From: Pontibacter mucosus
GTDB taxonomy: Bacteria; Bacteroidota; Bacteroidia; Cytophagales; Hymenobacteraceae
Direction: 5' to 3'
Assembly: GCF_003054055.1 (NCBI RefSeq)
Contig: NZ_QBKI01000001.1
Location: 186,001-250,000, forward strand
DNA: 64,000 nt
A program made the position numbers and the translations under genes. The notes beneath the pieces are model-generated. The model worked only from the letters and a program-made list of their open reading frames with translations. It was not told the DNA's origin and searched no databases. Shown here piece by piece: positions 50,646 to 56,873 of the stretch. Numbering within the stretch: position 1 is the first letter of the stretch; each line of letters begins with the position of its first letter.

Positions 50646-51368
50646 ATGAAGCGATTACTGTATTTTATACTTTGCCTGCTCCTGCTGATGCCCGCTTATA
50701 CGTTGCAGGCGCAACAGCAGGAGATAAAGGTAACCAAGCTAGCGCCTAACGTATGGGTGCATACCTCCTATAGCACGTATCAGGGCGTTTCAGTCCCCTC
50801 GCATGGATTGGTGGTTGCTACCAAAGAGGGCGCGGTGCTGGTGGATACCGGCTGGGGCAACGAACCCACCGAGCAGCTGCTGGCCTGGGTAAAAACCAAC
50901 CTGAAGCAGCCGGTAAAAGTATGCCTGCCCACCCACTGGCACGACGATAAGATAGGCGGCATGAAAGTGGTGCAGCAGCAGGGCATTCCGGTGGTTACTT
51001 CTGCGCTGACGGCCATACTTGCCGCTGAAAATGGCAAAGGCACCCCGGACGTTACTTTCGCCACAGACACAACGTTTACCATCGGTGTGCAGCAGTTTGA
51101 AGTATACTTCCCCGGCGGCGGGCATACCCTCGATAACGTGGTGGTATACTTGCCGCAGCAAAAAATCCTGTTCGGTGGCTGCCTGGTGAAAGACCTGCAG
51201 GCAACCACGCTGGGCAACACCGCCGACGCCGACCTGAAAAGCTGGCCCTTTGCCATTCAAAACCTGCAGCAGCGCTACCCCAAAGCAAAAACGGTAGTGC
51301 CCAGCCACGGTCCCTGGGGCGACAAAGCCTTGTTGAGCCATACACTGGAGCTGCTGCAAAAACGGTAA
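50646..51368 (+). CDS. Subclass B1 metallo-beta-lactamase
   Basis: A 240-residue protein with a signal peptide (about 1-22). All zinc ligands of subclass B1 are present: site 1 His97, His99 (THWHDD) and His160 (GGGHTLDN); site 2 Asp101, Cys179 (LFGGCLVKDL) and His221 (VPSHGPWGD). The substrate-binding Lys three residues after the Cys (GCLVK) and the LGN loop (TTLGNTADADLKSW) are also kept. Such enzymes hydrolyse beta-lactams, usually including carbapenems, in the periplasm. Substrate range is not readable from sequence. It lies 12 bases behind an M28 peptidase, without mobile elements, so it seems to be a chromosomal gene. Confidence 0.92.
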   Translation: MKRLLYFILCLLLLMPAYTLQAQQQEIKVTKLAPNVWVHTSYSTYQGVSVPSHGLVVATKEGAVLVDTGWGNEPTEQLLAWVKTNLKQPVKVCLPTHWHDDKIGGMKVVQQQGIPVVTSALTAILAAENGKGTPDVTFATDTTFTIGVQQFEVYFPGGGHTLDNVVVYLPQQKILFGGCLVKDLQATTLGNTADADLKSWPFAIQNLQQRYPKAKTVVPSHGPWGDKALLSHTLELLQKR

Positions 51369-52998: not shown

Positions 52999-53805
52999 AT
53001 GACACAGACCAAAGTAGACACGGTATACTATAGCATTACCCGCGGCGACAGCCCCCTGGTAGCCACAGCCATCCACAACGGGCACGAGGTACGCCACAAC
53101 TTGCGGCCCCTGTTCAACCTTACCCCTGCAGAACGACTGCGCGAGGAAGACCCTTTTACAGGCGAGTGGGTGGATGTCACCGACAACCAGATTGTGGGCC
53201 ATTACTCCCGTTTTGAGCTGGACCTGAACCGCCCACCCGAAAAGGCCATCTACCGCAAACCCGAGGACGCCTGGGGCCTGCAGGTCTGGAAGGAGACGCT
53301 GCCCGAGGAGCTGGCCAAGGAGTCGATGATGCGCTACGATAAATTTTATGAGGACGTAAAGCAGATGCTGGGCGAACTGCTGAGCGAGCACGGCTGCCTC
53401 GTCATCTATGACCTCCATACTTACAACCACCGCCGCGAAGGCCCCAACGGCCCCGCTGCCGACCCTGAAGGCAACCCGGAAGTGAACATCGGCACCGGCA
53501 ACATGAACCGGGAGAAGTGGGCACCGGTGGTGGAGGCGCTCATGCACAGCCTCGGCAACTACAATTACCGCGGCCGGAGGCTGGACGTGCGCGAGAATGT
53601 TAAGTTTGAAGGGGGCCACTTCATGCGCTGGATTCACGACACCTTCGGCGACAGGGTGTGCGTGATGAGTATCGAGTTCAAGAAATTCTTTATGGATGAA
53701 TGGACCGGCGAGCCCGACCGGGCGCAGGTGCAGGAGATACGGCAGGCACTGCAGCAAAGCACCCGCCCCGTACTGGAGGCGCTGGCGCAGGTATGCCAGG
53801 TGTAA
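52999..53805 (+). CDS. N-formylglutamate amidohydrolase family protein
   Basis: A 268-residue protein of the FGase family of zinc hydrolases, which cleave N-formylglutamate or similar N-acyl amino acids. The start SPLVATAIHNGHEVR holds the first metal His, the SRFELDLNRP motif is the family's Asn-Arg signature, and VIYDLHTYNHRR and FEGGHFMRW supply further metal and substrate residues. No histidine-degradation genes are nearby. It heads a group with a QEGLA metallopeptidase and an ATP-grasp ligase, so its substrate is probably a product of that group (inference). Confidence 0.87.
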   Translation: MTQTKVDTVYYSITRGDSPLVATAIHNGHEVRHNLRPLFNLTPAERLREEDPFTGEWVDVTDNQIVGHYSRFELDLNRPPEKAIYRKPEDAWGLQVWKETLPEELAKESMMRYDKFYEDVKQMLGELLSEHGCLVIYDLHTYNHRREGPNGPAADPEGNPEVNIGTGNMNREKWAPVVEALMHSLGNYNYRGRRLDVRENVKFEGGHFMRWIHDTFGDRVCVMSIEFKKFFMDEWTGEPDRAQVQEIRQALQQSTRPVLEALAQVCQV

Positions 53806-53820
53806 TTGCGTATGTCGTAG

Positions 53821-53884
53821 CACGTATCACGTAGCACGATGTATGAATCTTTAAGTTTAAGTCGTGATTCGTGCTACGTGATAC
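53821..53884. repeat. Perfect 17-bp inverted repeat
   Basis: CGTATCACGTAGCACGA (from about 53823) is repeated in inverse form as TCGTGCTACGTGATACG (to 53884), with further GTAGCACGTA words nearby. It lies between the amidohydrolase and QEGLA genes and has no T-tract, so it is not a normal terminator. It could be a protein-binding site, or a member of the ATTCGTGATTCG-like phrase repeats seen at 25255-25275 and 41207-41260. Confidence 0.6.
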
Positions 53885-53946
53885 GAAGAAGCCTCTATCT
53901 AAGACCTCATACAATCCTCACCCTAACCGGCTGAGCACATTTAGCC

Positions 53947-55785
53947 ATGATTGAAAGTATAACCGAAGATTTCATCAGGAAAACAACCCGGAGCCTGAAG
54001 CGGGGCAAGCAGGTGCACCGCCGCCTGCCCGACGGCGGGCTGCTTTACATCGACCGCCCCCTGCCCTTTCTTATACTTTTCCGCCACCCCACAGGCCAGC
54101 CCGACCACGCCACAGCCAACTTTCTCAAAGCCTTTGCTTCCTACATCATCTCGCATGAGGATCGCACCGAAGAGCTACGCCCGCTGGTGCAAAGTATAGC
54201 GCAGGCCATGGCCGGCAAGTTTGGGGCTTTTATGATTATAGAGTTGACGGCTGCCCCTACCCCGGATGCGCCGTTGTTCAAAGTATTGGGGCCGGAGGAG
54301 CAGCTGCCTACCACCACCCAGACCCTGGAGAAAGAGCTGCAAAGTATAAAGCTGACCGGCATACCCACTTCTGTGGAGGTTGCCAGTAACGCGCCGCTAC
54401 TGCAGGAGCCGCACTGCCTGCTGCCCGAGGAGCAGCTGAAGAAATATAGTATCCTAATGCTGGGGCTTCAGCTGAAGCCTATTTACAAAAACGCCGACGG
54501 AACCGTATACCCACTGCTGCTGCGCGCGCTGCGCCAGAAGCTGACCAACGCCCTCATGAAGACCGTTTTTAACTTCGTGAGCGTGCAAACTACCCATAAG
54601 CCGGTGCATTTCCAGGCGCTGGGGCGGCATGCGGTCAACCGGGTGGCGTGGCGTATCGACCAACAGCTGGCAAGTATAAGCGACCAGTTCCGGTTCCTGC
54701 TGCTGGTGACGCCCGTCAACAACAACGAGGCCTGGGAAGAATTCAGGAAAGCAAAGTATAACAAGGCGCCTACCTTCCACTACCGCCTCATGCCCATCGA
54801 TGCCGACCAGCTCAAGCGCAAACTCTACAACATCCCCATCGAGAAGGTAGACGATCCCACCCTGGGCTACCTCTTCCGCGACAAGCGCCACGAGCTGGAC
54901 AAGATGATCACCATGCTCTCGGACCGCAACACGCCTGATTTTCTGTACAGCAGCATGCAGCTCTATGGCACTGTGGACGATCAGCTGCTAAAAGTGGCCG
55001 AAGGCATCCTGGCCGCCGTACCCGCGCCCGATCAAAGTATAAAAACTGAGTTTATGCCTGTACCCGAGTTTGTAGCGCAGGCCGAGCAGGAGATTGCTTT
55101 TTTGCGGGAGCAGTACCCGGCGCTCGACTCCGGCGTGGATGTGCGGGACGACGTGGTGGGGCTAATCGTATCCAAGGGCAGGCTTAACGTGGGCACCGAC
55201 GCCAGGATTCCGCGCCACCGCGCCCAGGCCCTGATCCAGCACGAGGTAGGCACCCACATCCTGACCTACTATAACGGCAAAGCGCAGCCGCTGCAGCAGC
55301 TCTACGTGGGCAGCCCCGGCTACGAGGAGTTGCAGGAGGGGCTGGCCGTGCTGAGCGAGTGGCTGGTGGGCGGGTTGGATCAGGCCCGGATGCGCACCCT
55401 GGCAGCGCGCGTAGTGGCCGTGTACCACCTGACCAAAGGCTGCAGCTTTACCGACAACTTCCGGCGGCTGAAGGAGGAGTACCATTTTGACGACGAAGCA
55501 GCCTGGAACGTGACCATGCGCGTGCACCGCGGCGGCGGCCTTACGAAAGACGCGGTCTACCTGCGCGGCCTGGTGCACCTGCTCGAGTACCTGAAGGCTG
55601 GAAACGAGCTGGAGCCGCTGCTTATCGGCAAAATCCGGCAGGACTACATCCCCATCGTGCAGGAGCTCATCTACCGCCGGGTGTTGCGCCCCATGCCCCT
55701 GCGGCCGCGCTACCTCCTCGACCCGCAGCTCCAACCCAAGCTCGAACAACTAAAAGCCGGTATTTCAGTATTTAACCTACTGTAA
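53947..55785 (+). CDS. QEGLA-motif zinc peptidase (TIGR02421 / DUF1704, MATCAP-like)
   Basis: A 612-residue protein. The N-terminal ~370 residues are an uncharacterised alpha/beta region. The C-terminal peptidase-like domain has HEVGTH (His432, Glu433, His437), an HExxxH zinc site, and the family-defining QEGLA with Glu464 as likely third ligand. The family is called flavohaemoglobin-expression-modulating QEGLA protein, an indirect name. Its eukaryotic relatives (DUF1704, MATCAP) are carboxypeptidases that remove the C-terminal tyrosine of tubulin. A carboxypeptidase-like activity here is an inference. It is 38 bases upstream of the ATP-grasp ligase. Seven AAGTATA/TATACTT heptamers lie within its first 1.1 kb. 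Confidence 0.87.
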   Translation: MIESITEDFIRKTTRSLKRGKQVHRRLPDGGLLYIDRPLPFLILFRHPTGQPDHATANFLKAFASYIISHEDRTEELRPLVQSIAQAMAGKFGAFMIIELTAAPTPDAPLFKVLGPEEQLPTTTQTLEKELQSIKLTGIPTSVEVASNAPLLQEPHCLLPEEQLKKYSILMLGLQLKPIYKNADGTVYPLLLRALRQKLTNALMKTVFNFVSVQTTHKPVHFQALGRHAVNRVAWRIDQQLASISDQFRFLLLVTPVNNNEAWEEFRKAKYNKAPTFHYRLMPIDADQLKRKLYNIPIEKVDDPTLGYLFRDKRHELDKMITMLSDRNTPDFLYSSMQLYGTVDDQLLKVAEGILAAVPAPDQSIKTEFMPVPEFVAQAEQEIAFLREQYPALDSGVDVRDDVVGLIVSKGRLNVGTDARIPRHRAQALIQHEVGTHILTYYNGKAQPLQQLYVGSPGYEELQEGLAVLSEWLVGGLDQARMRTLAARVVAVYHLTKGCSFTDNFRRLKEEYHFDDEAAWNVTMRVHRGGGLTKDAVYLRGLVHLLEYLKAGNELEPLLIGKIRQDYIPIVQELIYRRVLRPMPLRPRYLLDPQLQPKLEQLKAGISVFNLL

Positions 55786-55823
55786 TCTTCCGACCAGTTC
55801 AACCAACATTCATTATCACCCAC

Positions 55824-56873
55824 ATGACAATAGGATTTGTAGTAAACAACATAGAGACGGAGAAGCCGGGGTACTCCACCATTTTCCTGGCGCAGCGCAT
55901 GCACAACAAAGGGCACCAGGTATACCTGATGGGCGTAGGCGACCTGGCCTACTACCCCGACGGCTACATGGGCGCCGAGGCCGTGCACGCTGACCCCAAC
56001 CATAAGTACAAATCGCCAGCCACTTACCTGGAGGCCATCCAAGGCGAGAAAGCCCGGAAAGTACGTGTTACGGCTCCTGAGCTGGATGTGCTCATGCTCC
56101 GCAACGACCCCTCTTCGGAAGGGGAAGGGCGCGCCTGGGCCCAGAGCGCCGGTATCATTTTCGGGCAGCTGGCCCTGCGCCACGGCGTCATCGTGCTCAA
56201 CGACCCGACCAAGCTTTCCGATGCGGTGAACAAGATGTACTTTCAGCACTTTCCGGAGGAGGTGCGGCCGCACACGCTCATCACCCGCGACAAAAACGAG
56301 ATACGGGAATTTTTCGAGGCGCAGAAGAACAACATCATCCTCAAGCCGCTGCAAGGCTCGGGCGGGTCGGGTGTGTTTTTGGTAAAAAAGGATGACGCCA
56401 CCAACCTGAACCAGATCGTGGAGGCCATCAGCCGCGACGGCTACGTGATTGCCCAGGAGTACCTGCCCCAGGCCGTGGAAGGCGACGTGCGCCTGATTGT
56501 AGTGAACGGAGAGGCGCTGCAGTACAAGGGAAAATACTGCGCCATACACCGCGTTACGGGCAAGGACGACATCCGCAGCAACATACACGCCGGTGGTTCC
56601 TCGCAGGCAGCCAAGATTACCCAACCCATGCTGGATCTGGTGGAGCTCGTAAGGCCCAAGCTGATACAGGACGGGATGTTCCTGGTGGGGCTCGACATTG
56701 TGGGCGACAAGCTGATGGAGATAAACGTGTTTAGCCCCGGCGGCCTGGTGAATGCCAGCGAGCTGGAGGGAGTGGACTTCTCGGAGCCGATTATAGCGGC
56801 CCTGGAGCGAAAGGTACACTACAAGAAAACCTACGATACCCAAATCAGCAACAAGACGGTGGCTATGATCTAG
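55824..56873 (+). CDS. ATP-grasp ligase, glutathione-synthetase-like
   Basis: A 349-residue ATP-grasp protein similar to the GshB type. An N-terminal pre-ATP-grasp domain (MTIGFVVNNIETEKPGYSTIFLAQRMHNKGHQVYLMGVGDL) contains LMLRNDPSSEG. The ATP-binding part has IILKPLQGSGGSGVFLV, QEYLPQAVEGDVRLIVVNGEAL and the magnesium-binding LVGLDIVGDKLMEINVFSPGG. It should form an amide between a carboxylate and an amine with ATP to ADP. No gshA-like gene is adjacent, so true glutathione synthesis is unlikely; with its neighbours it may add an amino acid to a peptide or metabolite. A terminator follows. Confidence 0.88.
   Translation: MTIGFVVNNIETEKPGYSTIFLAQRMHNKGHQVYLMGVGDLAYYPDGYMGAEAVHADPNHKYKSPATYLEAIQGEKARKVRVTAPELDVLMLRNDPSSEGEGRAWAQSAGIIFGQLALRHGVIVLNDPTKLSDAVNKMYFQHFPEEVRPHTLITRDKNEIREFFEAQKNNIILKPLQGSGGSGVFLVKKDDATNLNQIVEAISRDGYVIAQEYLPQAVEGDVRLIVVNGEALQYKGKYCAIHRVTGKDDIRSNIHAGGSSQAAKITQPMLDLVELVRPKLIQDGMFLVGLDIVGDKLMEINVFSPGGLVNASELEGVDFSEPIIAALERKVHYKKTYDTQISNKTVAMI

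Follow-up and report, generated by a model that had tools for sequence, protein, structure and literature searches.

A conserved bacterial gene set joining a MATCAP-like peptidase, a GshB-like ligase and a deacylase-family enzyme, with a proposed role in small acidic peptide turnover

Introduction

Peptidase family PF08014 (DUF1704, QEGLA) is best known for MATCAP. Here we analyse a bacterial member encoded in a stretch of 64,000 nucleotides from Pontibacter mucosus (Bacteroidota; contig NZ_QBKI01000001.1, positions 186,001 to 250,000; hereafter the window), where its gene lies between those for an amidohydrolase of the N-formylglutamate amidohydrolase (FGase) family and a GshB-like ATP-grasp ligase. 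The three-gene set is widely conserved in bacteria, with one member usually labelled glutathione synthetase, and we tentatively propose for it a role in the synthesis and breakdown of a small N-acylated acidic peptide.

Ligases and hydrolases with related tasks are known elsewhere. In the mammalian cycle of N-acetylaspartylglutamate (NAAG), RIMKLA and RIMKLB make NAAG and GCPII splits it (PMC3872778), while aspartoacylase hydrolyses N-acetylaspartate (PMC10998430). RimK and RimB add and remove C-terminal glutamates on ribosomal protein RpsF (PMC12239564), and MATCAP removes residues from the C-terminus of tubulin tails (PMC10499314).

A 2009 amidoligase survey by Iyer et al. may list this neighbourhood, and we do not claim the linkage as unpublished. 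In the open-licence literature no bacterial PF08014 member with a known function turned up, and no paper was found that treats DUF1704 together with ATP-grasp; the passages of PMC4431377 consulted make no mention of ligase or FGase partners.

Results

The three genes are all on the + strand, as a sequence-only reading of the window had it, and its family calls are upheld by profile scores. The FGase-family amidohydrolase (52999–53805, 268 amino acids) scores 74.3 bits with PF05013 (cut-off 28.9), and the peptidase (53947–55785, 612 amino acids, two domains) 292.2 bits with PF08014 (gathering cut-off 27). The ligase (55824–56873, 349 amino acids) matches GSH-S_ATP PF02955 at 180.4 bits, together with RimK and GSH-S_N, and belongs to the PRK12458/NF009110 subfamily (460.3 bits versus cut-off 408). 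No signal peptide was seen by eye at any of the three N-termini, so the proteins are taken as cytosolic. The peptidase shares 97% identity with its P. chinhatensis counterpart. A palindromic repeat (53806–53900) separates the peptidase gene from that of the FGase, and partial matches to it are found at 11 other places in the genome.

Linkage was assessed in 395 Bacteroidota genomes, drawn evenly; a PF08014 peptidase is encoded in 19 of them. A GshB-like ligase of NF009110 grade is present in 18 of these 19 and in none of the other 376; 17 genomes exceed the cut-off, G002 falls just short (396.5 versus 408 bits) and the next best genome reaches 215 bits. All 20 ligase matches lie 36–2486 bp from a peptidase match. 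Fisher's test on this co-occurrence gives p = 3e-30 by genome and p = 1e-21 by genus (16/17 versus 0/154), shared ancestry being left in both counts. FGase, peptidase and ligase occur together in 15 of the 19 genomes; in L032 the FGase and peptidase are fused. Three more (L041, L042, L044) carry an AstE/AspA-family gene but no FGase within the sequence retrieved, which for L042 reached only 2.5 kb upstream, and in one (L027) the peptidase is alone. The co-occurrence tally that the sequence-only reading had suggested thus shows near perfect linkage in this draw.

The set recurs well outside this sample. A scan seeded with the window peptidase found all three genes in 30 of 31 loci, L068 having the peptidase only. 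This collection is redundant (12 of the 31 are Pontibacter, and three of the 30 complete loci come from assemblies with broken frames), and two of its members come from metagenome-assembled genomes (MAGs), one binned as Planctomycetota and the other as Chloroflexi. A plasmid search gave 127 records with a peptidase match, of which 79 are from Sinorhizobium; six were read. Four annotated Rhizobiales records have the order FGase, peptidase, ligase, with a 4-bp overlap of the first two genes; a Sinorhizobium ligase missing from the PLSDB table is present in the sequence. A Vibrio HDW18 plasmid (L080) carries an FGase-peptidase fusion without a linked ligase, and a Pseudoalteromonas plasmid a short peptidase alone. 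Two further plasmids were found via the ligase. That of Photobacterium DA100 (L112) has ligase and fusion together. On an Ensifer plasmid (L113, 6259–8047) an NF009110-like ligase stands alone beside a GNAT acetyltransferase, with no peptidase or FGase in the stretch read. Eighteen viral stretches matched the search pattern, none of which encodes a relative.

Peptidases lacking the other two genes (L027, L068, L081) and the single lone ligase of L113 could mean that the three are chance neighbours with unrelated substrates. The co-occurrence statistics, the fusions and the recurrence on plasmids of another phylum refute that explanation, to which we give almost no weight, and the absence of conserved linkage that would have told against the earlier idea of a joint system was not found: the linkage extends to Alpha- and Gammaproteobacteria and the two MAGs.

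The C-terminal domain of the peptidase (residues 252–612; 54700–55782) has the MATCAP fold. In an AlphaFold2 (AF2) model of the whole protein (predicted local distance difference test, pLDDT, 90.0), it matches MATCAP 7z5g with Z 24.1 and a root-mean-square deviation (rmsd) of 3.0 over 290 aligned residues. The HEVGTH motif (residues 432–437; 55240–55257) corresponds to HEIGTH of MATCAP, and Glu464 of QEGLA (55336–55338), the predicted third zinc ligand, to the glutamate of its EEGLA; every one of the 26 aligned homologues keeps His432, Glu433, His437 and Glu464. With the NCBI hypothetical equivalog model TIGR02421 (QEGLA) the protein scores 327.6 bits, just below the cut-off of 338.65.

This fold match, along with the tubulin and RpsF precedents, speaks for a reversible C-terminal tag on a protein or ribosomal peptide, which the ligase would add and the MATCAP-like peptidase remove, the FGase handling the released or acylated residue. 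We regard protein-tail tagging as the main rival of the N-acyl peptide cycle, though an unlikely one. Among solved ligase structures the nearest is the dipeptide ligase GshB, albeit with RimK also matching; a linked substrate protein is not evident among the adjacent genes scanned; and the exchange of one deacylase family for another, described below, would have no clear role.

The window peptidase is a long form, with ∼250 extra N-terminal residues, in which residues 28–215 (54028–54591) adopt an FGase fold in the AF2 model, matching FGase 2q7s with Z 14.1 and rmsd 2.9 over 174 aligned residues. VIA-align rows for this domain also include zinc carboxypeptidases and amidases, with Z about 9–10, below the 14.1 of 2q7s. 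Pfam gave no match in any of five long-form N-terminal domains tested, and hhalign aligned the domain with FGases in weak agreement (E 3.6e-4, probability 37%). Counted independently of any alignment, the DLNR motif is present in 0/33 long-form N-domains, versus 26/26 FGases and 3/3 FGase-peptidase fusions, and the HxGH motif in 0/33, versus 25/26 and 2/3. At the DLH column none of the 33 long forms has histidine (the window has Thr), D-hydrophobic-H being found elsewhere in one N-domain (L033); glutamate is kept at the catalytic-Glu column in 19 of 26 (Gln in the window). These motif residues are presumed from the fold to bind zinc and substrate.

Two registers are possible for aligning the beginning of this domain with FGases. 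One, given by MAFFT and hhalign, sets residues 42–48 at FGase residue 82 onward and keeps the DLNR arginine in 21/26; the other equates P40 with P19 and keeps the first histidine in 11/26, the window included, and is favoured by the strand and helix order in both models and by the fold-alignment ranges. Given this uncertainty, the case for inactivity rests on the missing DLNR and HxGH motifs and on the histidine lost from the DLH column. From these and the model we conclude that the N-terminal domain is a pseudo-FGase, newly recognised here and predicted to be catalytically dead.

In some loci an FGase is fused to the peptidase. Three such fusions, L032 (Bacteroidota), L080 and L112, exceed both the FGase and MATCAP cut-offs. 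In window numbering, the FGase part of L032 and L112 keeps H26, H29, R71, DLNR, D138, H140 and E226, while that of L080 is changed at H29, D51 and H140. A peptidase tree of 54 rows places the 43 long forms in one clade (100/99) and the three fusions with six short forms in a second (96/91), in which the position of L032 is weak (80/33). The lone short forms L027 and L081 stand apart on long branches. The three loci with an AstE/AspA gene group together (96/86), so the change from FGase to AstE/AspA amounts to one event. Divergence of the three proteins is linked across 42 loci (Spearman 0.77–0.89, 0 of 999 permutations as high). Loci with frames broken in the assemblies (L072, L074 and L076) do not figure in the peptidase alignment (A1), nor in the tree or the divergence test, L072 being kept in the FGase alignment (A2). 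Near copies were dropped as well, namely L054, L055 and L057 from A1 and L053, L054 and L055 from A2. The ligase alignment (A3) comprises 30 chosen sequences.

In the free-standing window FGase, H26, R71, D75-L-N-R78, D138, H140 and E226 are invariant in all 26 homologues of A2; their presumed catalytic roles are those of the zinc carboxypeptidase/aspartoacylase fold. A sequence search of solved structures returned chance matches only, while fold searches with the AF2 model (pLDDT 93.8) did match FGases, the closest being 2q7s (Z 24.1, rmsd 2.5, 239 aligned). Poly-gamma-glutamate hydrolases of like fold match at Z 11.5–11.8.

The closest solved structure to the ligase is E. coli GshB (1gsa, E 1.5e-36, over residues 9–309). 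The window ligase scores below both NCBI glutathione-synthase cut-offs (NF003573, 219 versus 272; TIGR01380, 203.1 versus 299.05). Five ligases were scored in all. NF003573 is passed, with 278–292 bits, by those of L032 and L112 and by the upstream copy of L034; that of L079 passes neither model, and no scored ligase passes TIGR01380. Two ligase types can be told apart. Those beside short-form peptidases (L028, L030, L036) are 28–29% identical to the window ligase and those beside long forms 44–86%; the Photobacterium ligase is 30% identical, and L033 and L034 have one ligase of each type beside a long-form peptidase. Public records (Rhizobiales plasmids) annotate NF009110-like ligases as glutathione synthetase. 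We searched for the preceding enzyme, glutamate-cysteine ligase, as two families. PF04262 is absent from all 19 peptidase hosts, and PF04107 is found in seven, six of which are among the 18 ligase-bearing genomes; the remaining 12 of those 18 lack both, so that glutathione synthesis is judged unlikely for most hosts. In the window host the single PF04107 protein belongs to a second locus, where its gene neighbours another FGase and an RLAN-RimK ligase.

A gamma-glutamyl or glutathione-like substrate was weighed in the same light. Here a gamma-glutamyl dipeptide would be extended by the ligase and trimmed at its C-terminus by the peptidase, and its gamma-glutamyl amide would be cut by the FGase-fold enzyme, in keeping with the GshB type of the ligase, the NF003573 passes, the fold shared with poly-gamma-glutamate hydrolases and the second locus just mentioned. 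The 12 hosts without either family to supply the gamma-glutamyl dipeptide, and the failure of the window ligase at both cut-offs and of every scored ligase at TIGR01380, make this improbable in our view.

Neighbouring genes offer some clues to the substrate. An adjacent codirectional ORF (open reading frame) of at least 100 amino acids, AstE/AspA genes excluded, is present in 22 of 47 loci, and in seven of them, all of family f7 (probably Flavobacteriaceae), it encodes a GltP/DctA-like symporter, Pfam-typed in L030, L034 and L036. Two of these symporters were scored, with GltP as best match (267–279 versus cut-off 638). Among eight genes in seven of the 15 non-symporter loci, no linked family recurs save a flavin/2Fe-2S oxidoreductase in two Olivibacter. 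An amino-acid permease lies upstream in L044. The f7 loci also have chorismate synthase, MutS and DCC1-like genes nearby, which we judged to be local synteny. A role in RiPP (ribosomally synthesized and post-translationally modified peptide) biosynthesis was rejected, no precursor or exporter being seen to recur beside the operon among ORFs of at least 60 amino acids. A rhodanese-domain gene is present between ligase and FGase in L033 (11319–12155, by Pfam) and L036 (6761–7606, by clustering).

The symporters and the permease would suit a mainly catabolic set, in which an acidic peptide, either taken up or made by the cell, would be broken down by peptidase and FGase, with the ligase building the freed amino acid into some other compound. 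The ligase is, however, tied to the peptidase more tightly (18/19) than is the FGase (15/19), so synthesis looks central, and we consider a catabolic purpose rather improbable.

Published expression data may bear on the set. At low salt, Photobacterium damselae raises A0J47_RS17020 ('GshB') 38-fold and A0J47_RS17025 ('QEGLA') 27.5-fold (PMC10308900); judging by their tags and by L112, these genes are presumably adjacent and of the ligase and peptidase kind described here. That paper treats the induced gene as glutathione synthetase, a reading that would need revisiting if this is the same ligase. The Vibrio vulnificus genes VV2_1203 (COG3930) and VV2_1204 (glutathione synthetase) are numbered consecutively (PMC3091676).

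Two further features of the window were recorded. A subclass B1 metallo-beta-lactamase gene is located at 50646–51368 (NF033088, 296.6 bits versus cut-off 200). The word AAGTATAA has 95 copies in the whole window and AAAGTATA has 77, versus 1.16 expected for the latter from dinucleotide shuffles, on both strands and inside genes. It is common to five of six Pontibacter loci counted (L046, L047, L050, L055 and L057, with 12–31 copies of AAAGTATA) and has 0 copies in P. roseus L056. We take it to resemble iterated words such as HIP1.

Discussion

By their names, the FGase and AstE/AspA families act on N-acyl derivatives of Glu and Asp (N-formylglutamate, succinylglutamate, N-acetylaspartate). 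Together with the AstE/AspA swap, the f7 symporter and the GshB type of the ligase, this points to an acidic amino acid, its N-acyl derivative or a small acidic peptide. The reading that we prefer, while putting it at somewhat less than an even chance, is that of a cytosolic three-enzyme set for the synthesis and breakdown of a small N-acylated acidic (Asp/Glu) peptide. In a first step the ligase would use ATP to join an amino acid to the free carboxylate of an acceptor of the N-acyl-aspartate or N-acyl-glutamate type. The MATCAP-like carboxypeptidase would then remove the C-terminal amino acid again, and the FGase, or in one clade the aspartoacylase/succinylglutamate-desuccinylase-family enzyme, would strip the N-acyl group and return the acidic amino acid. 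Where two ligases share an operon (L033, L034), the peptide might be extended by two residues. The sequence-only reading had suggested an add-and-remove cycle; its ligase and peptidase logic remains reasonable, with RimK/RimB as precedent, while the clues favour an acidic small peptide over a tag on a protein tail. The pseudo-FGase domain, the fusions, the deacylase swap and the two ligase types were absent from it.

A specific hypothesis of docking can be built on the pseudo-FGase domain: this inactivated domain may be a docking or allosteric module that holds peptidase and deacylase together. A broader proposition, which we regard as doubtful but worth stating, is an unrecognised metabolite cycle in several phyla, possibly under osmotic control. 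In it a GshB-like ligase would produce an N-acyl Asp/Glu peptide, a relative of the tubulin detyrosinase bearing an inactivated deacylase domain would take the peptide apart, and an active deacylase docked onto this inactive copy would release the acidic amino acid.

Several observations weigh against the N-acyl peptide cycle. The swap is single in the tree, and the AstE/AspA gene of L042 is convergent rather than codirectional; the AstE/AspA-like proteins score 45–70 bits, versus cut-offs of 170–306 for aspartoacylase and succinylglutamate desuccinylase. No N-acyltransferase is known to be linked to the set, the GNAT protein of L113 being near a lone ligase. The permutations of the divergence test leave shared ancestry in. 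The peptidase family also occurs without ligase or FGase partners, and the NF003573 passes count here too. Finally, the FGase fold is common to poly-gamma-glutamate hydrolases, which keeps a gamma-glutamyl substrate in consideration. The close tie of the peptidase to a single ligase family and a single deacylase family limits the possible substrates enough for a test with three purified enzymes.

Comparison with known systems

Other loci of the window genome make related pairings. At L045 (8932–12372, contig C3 of G000) FGase, GCS2 and RLAN-RimK ATP-grasp genes stand together, with a C39-like gene adjoining, and at L116 (6621–8961, contig C14 of G000) PF05618 peptidase, RimK and AstE/AspA genes are consecutive. 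Counting the window locus, this genome thus has three separate loci in which an ATP-grasp ligase is paired with a deacylase of the FGase or AstE/AspA type.

Like RimK/RimB, the set combines an ATP-grasp ligase and an opposing peptidase in one locus; RimB, however, is an aspartic peptidase and its target is RpsF (PMC12239564), whereas the window peptidase belongs to PF08014, and the retropepsin-like PF05618 type found beside RimK is not at the window locus but at L116. The peptidase shares its fold, HExxxH and glutamate ligand with the MATCAP/TMCP tubulin tail carboxypeptidases, but in bacteria the long form carries an FGase-fold domain at its N-terminus and is linked to a ligase and an FGase, and its target is assumed not to be tubulin. 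The ligase is a sequence relative of GshB, yet falls under both equivalog cut-offs, and 12/18 hosts have no tested GshA-type family. The FGase resembles HutG in belonging to PF05013 and in the fold of 2q7s (annotated N-formylglutamate amidohydrolase), but reaches 28 bits with the HutG N-formylglutamate deformylase model TIGR02017, versus a cut-off of 278.75.

The mammalian NAAG cycle combines an ATP-grasp ligase, a carboxypeptidase and a deacylase of N-acyl acidic amino acids; the bacterial set has enzymes of corresponding kinds, with an AstE/AspA-family gene beside ligase and peptidase in 3 of the 19 genomes only. Unlike in that cycle, the bacterial ligase is GshB-like rather than RIMKL and the peptidase is of MATCAP type rather than GCPII. 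By analogy, we propose that the bacterial set may work like NAAG turnover assembled from other ligase and peptidase families, a parallel to that cycle rather than a member of it.

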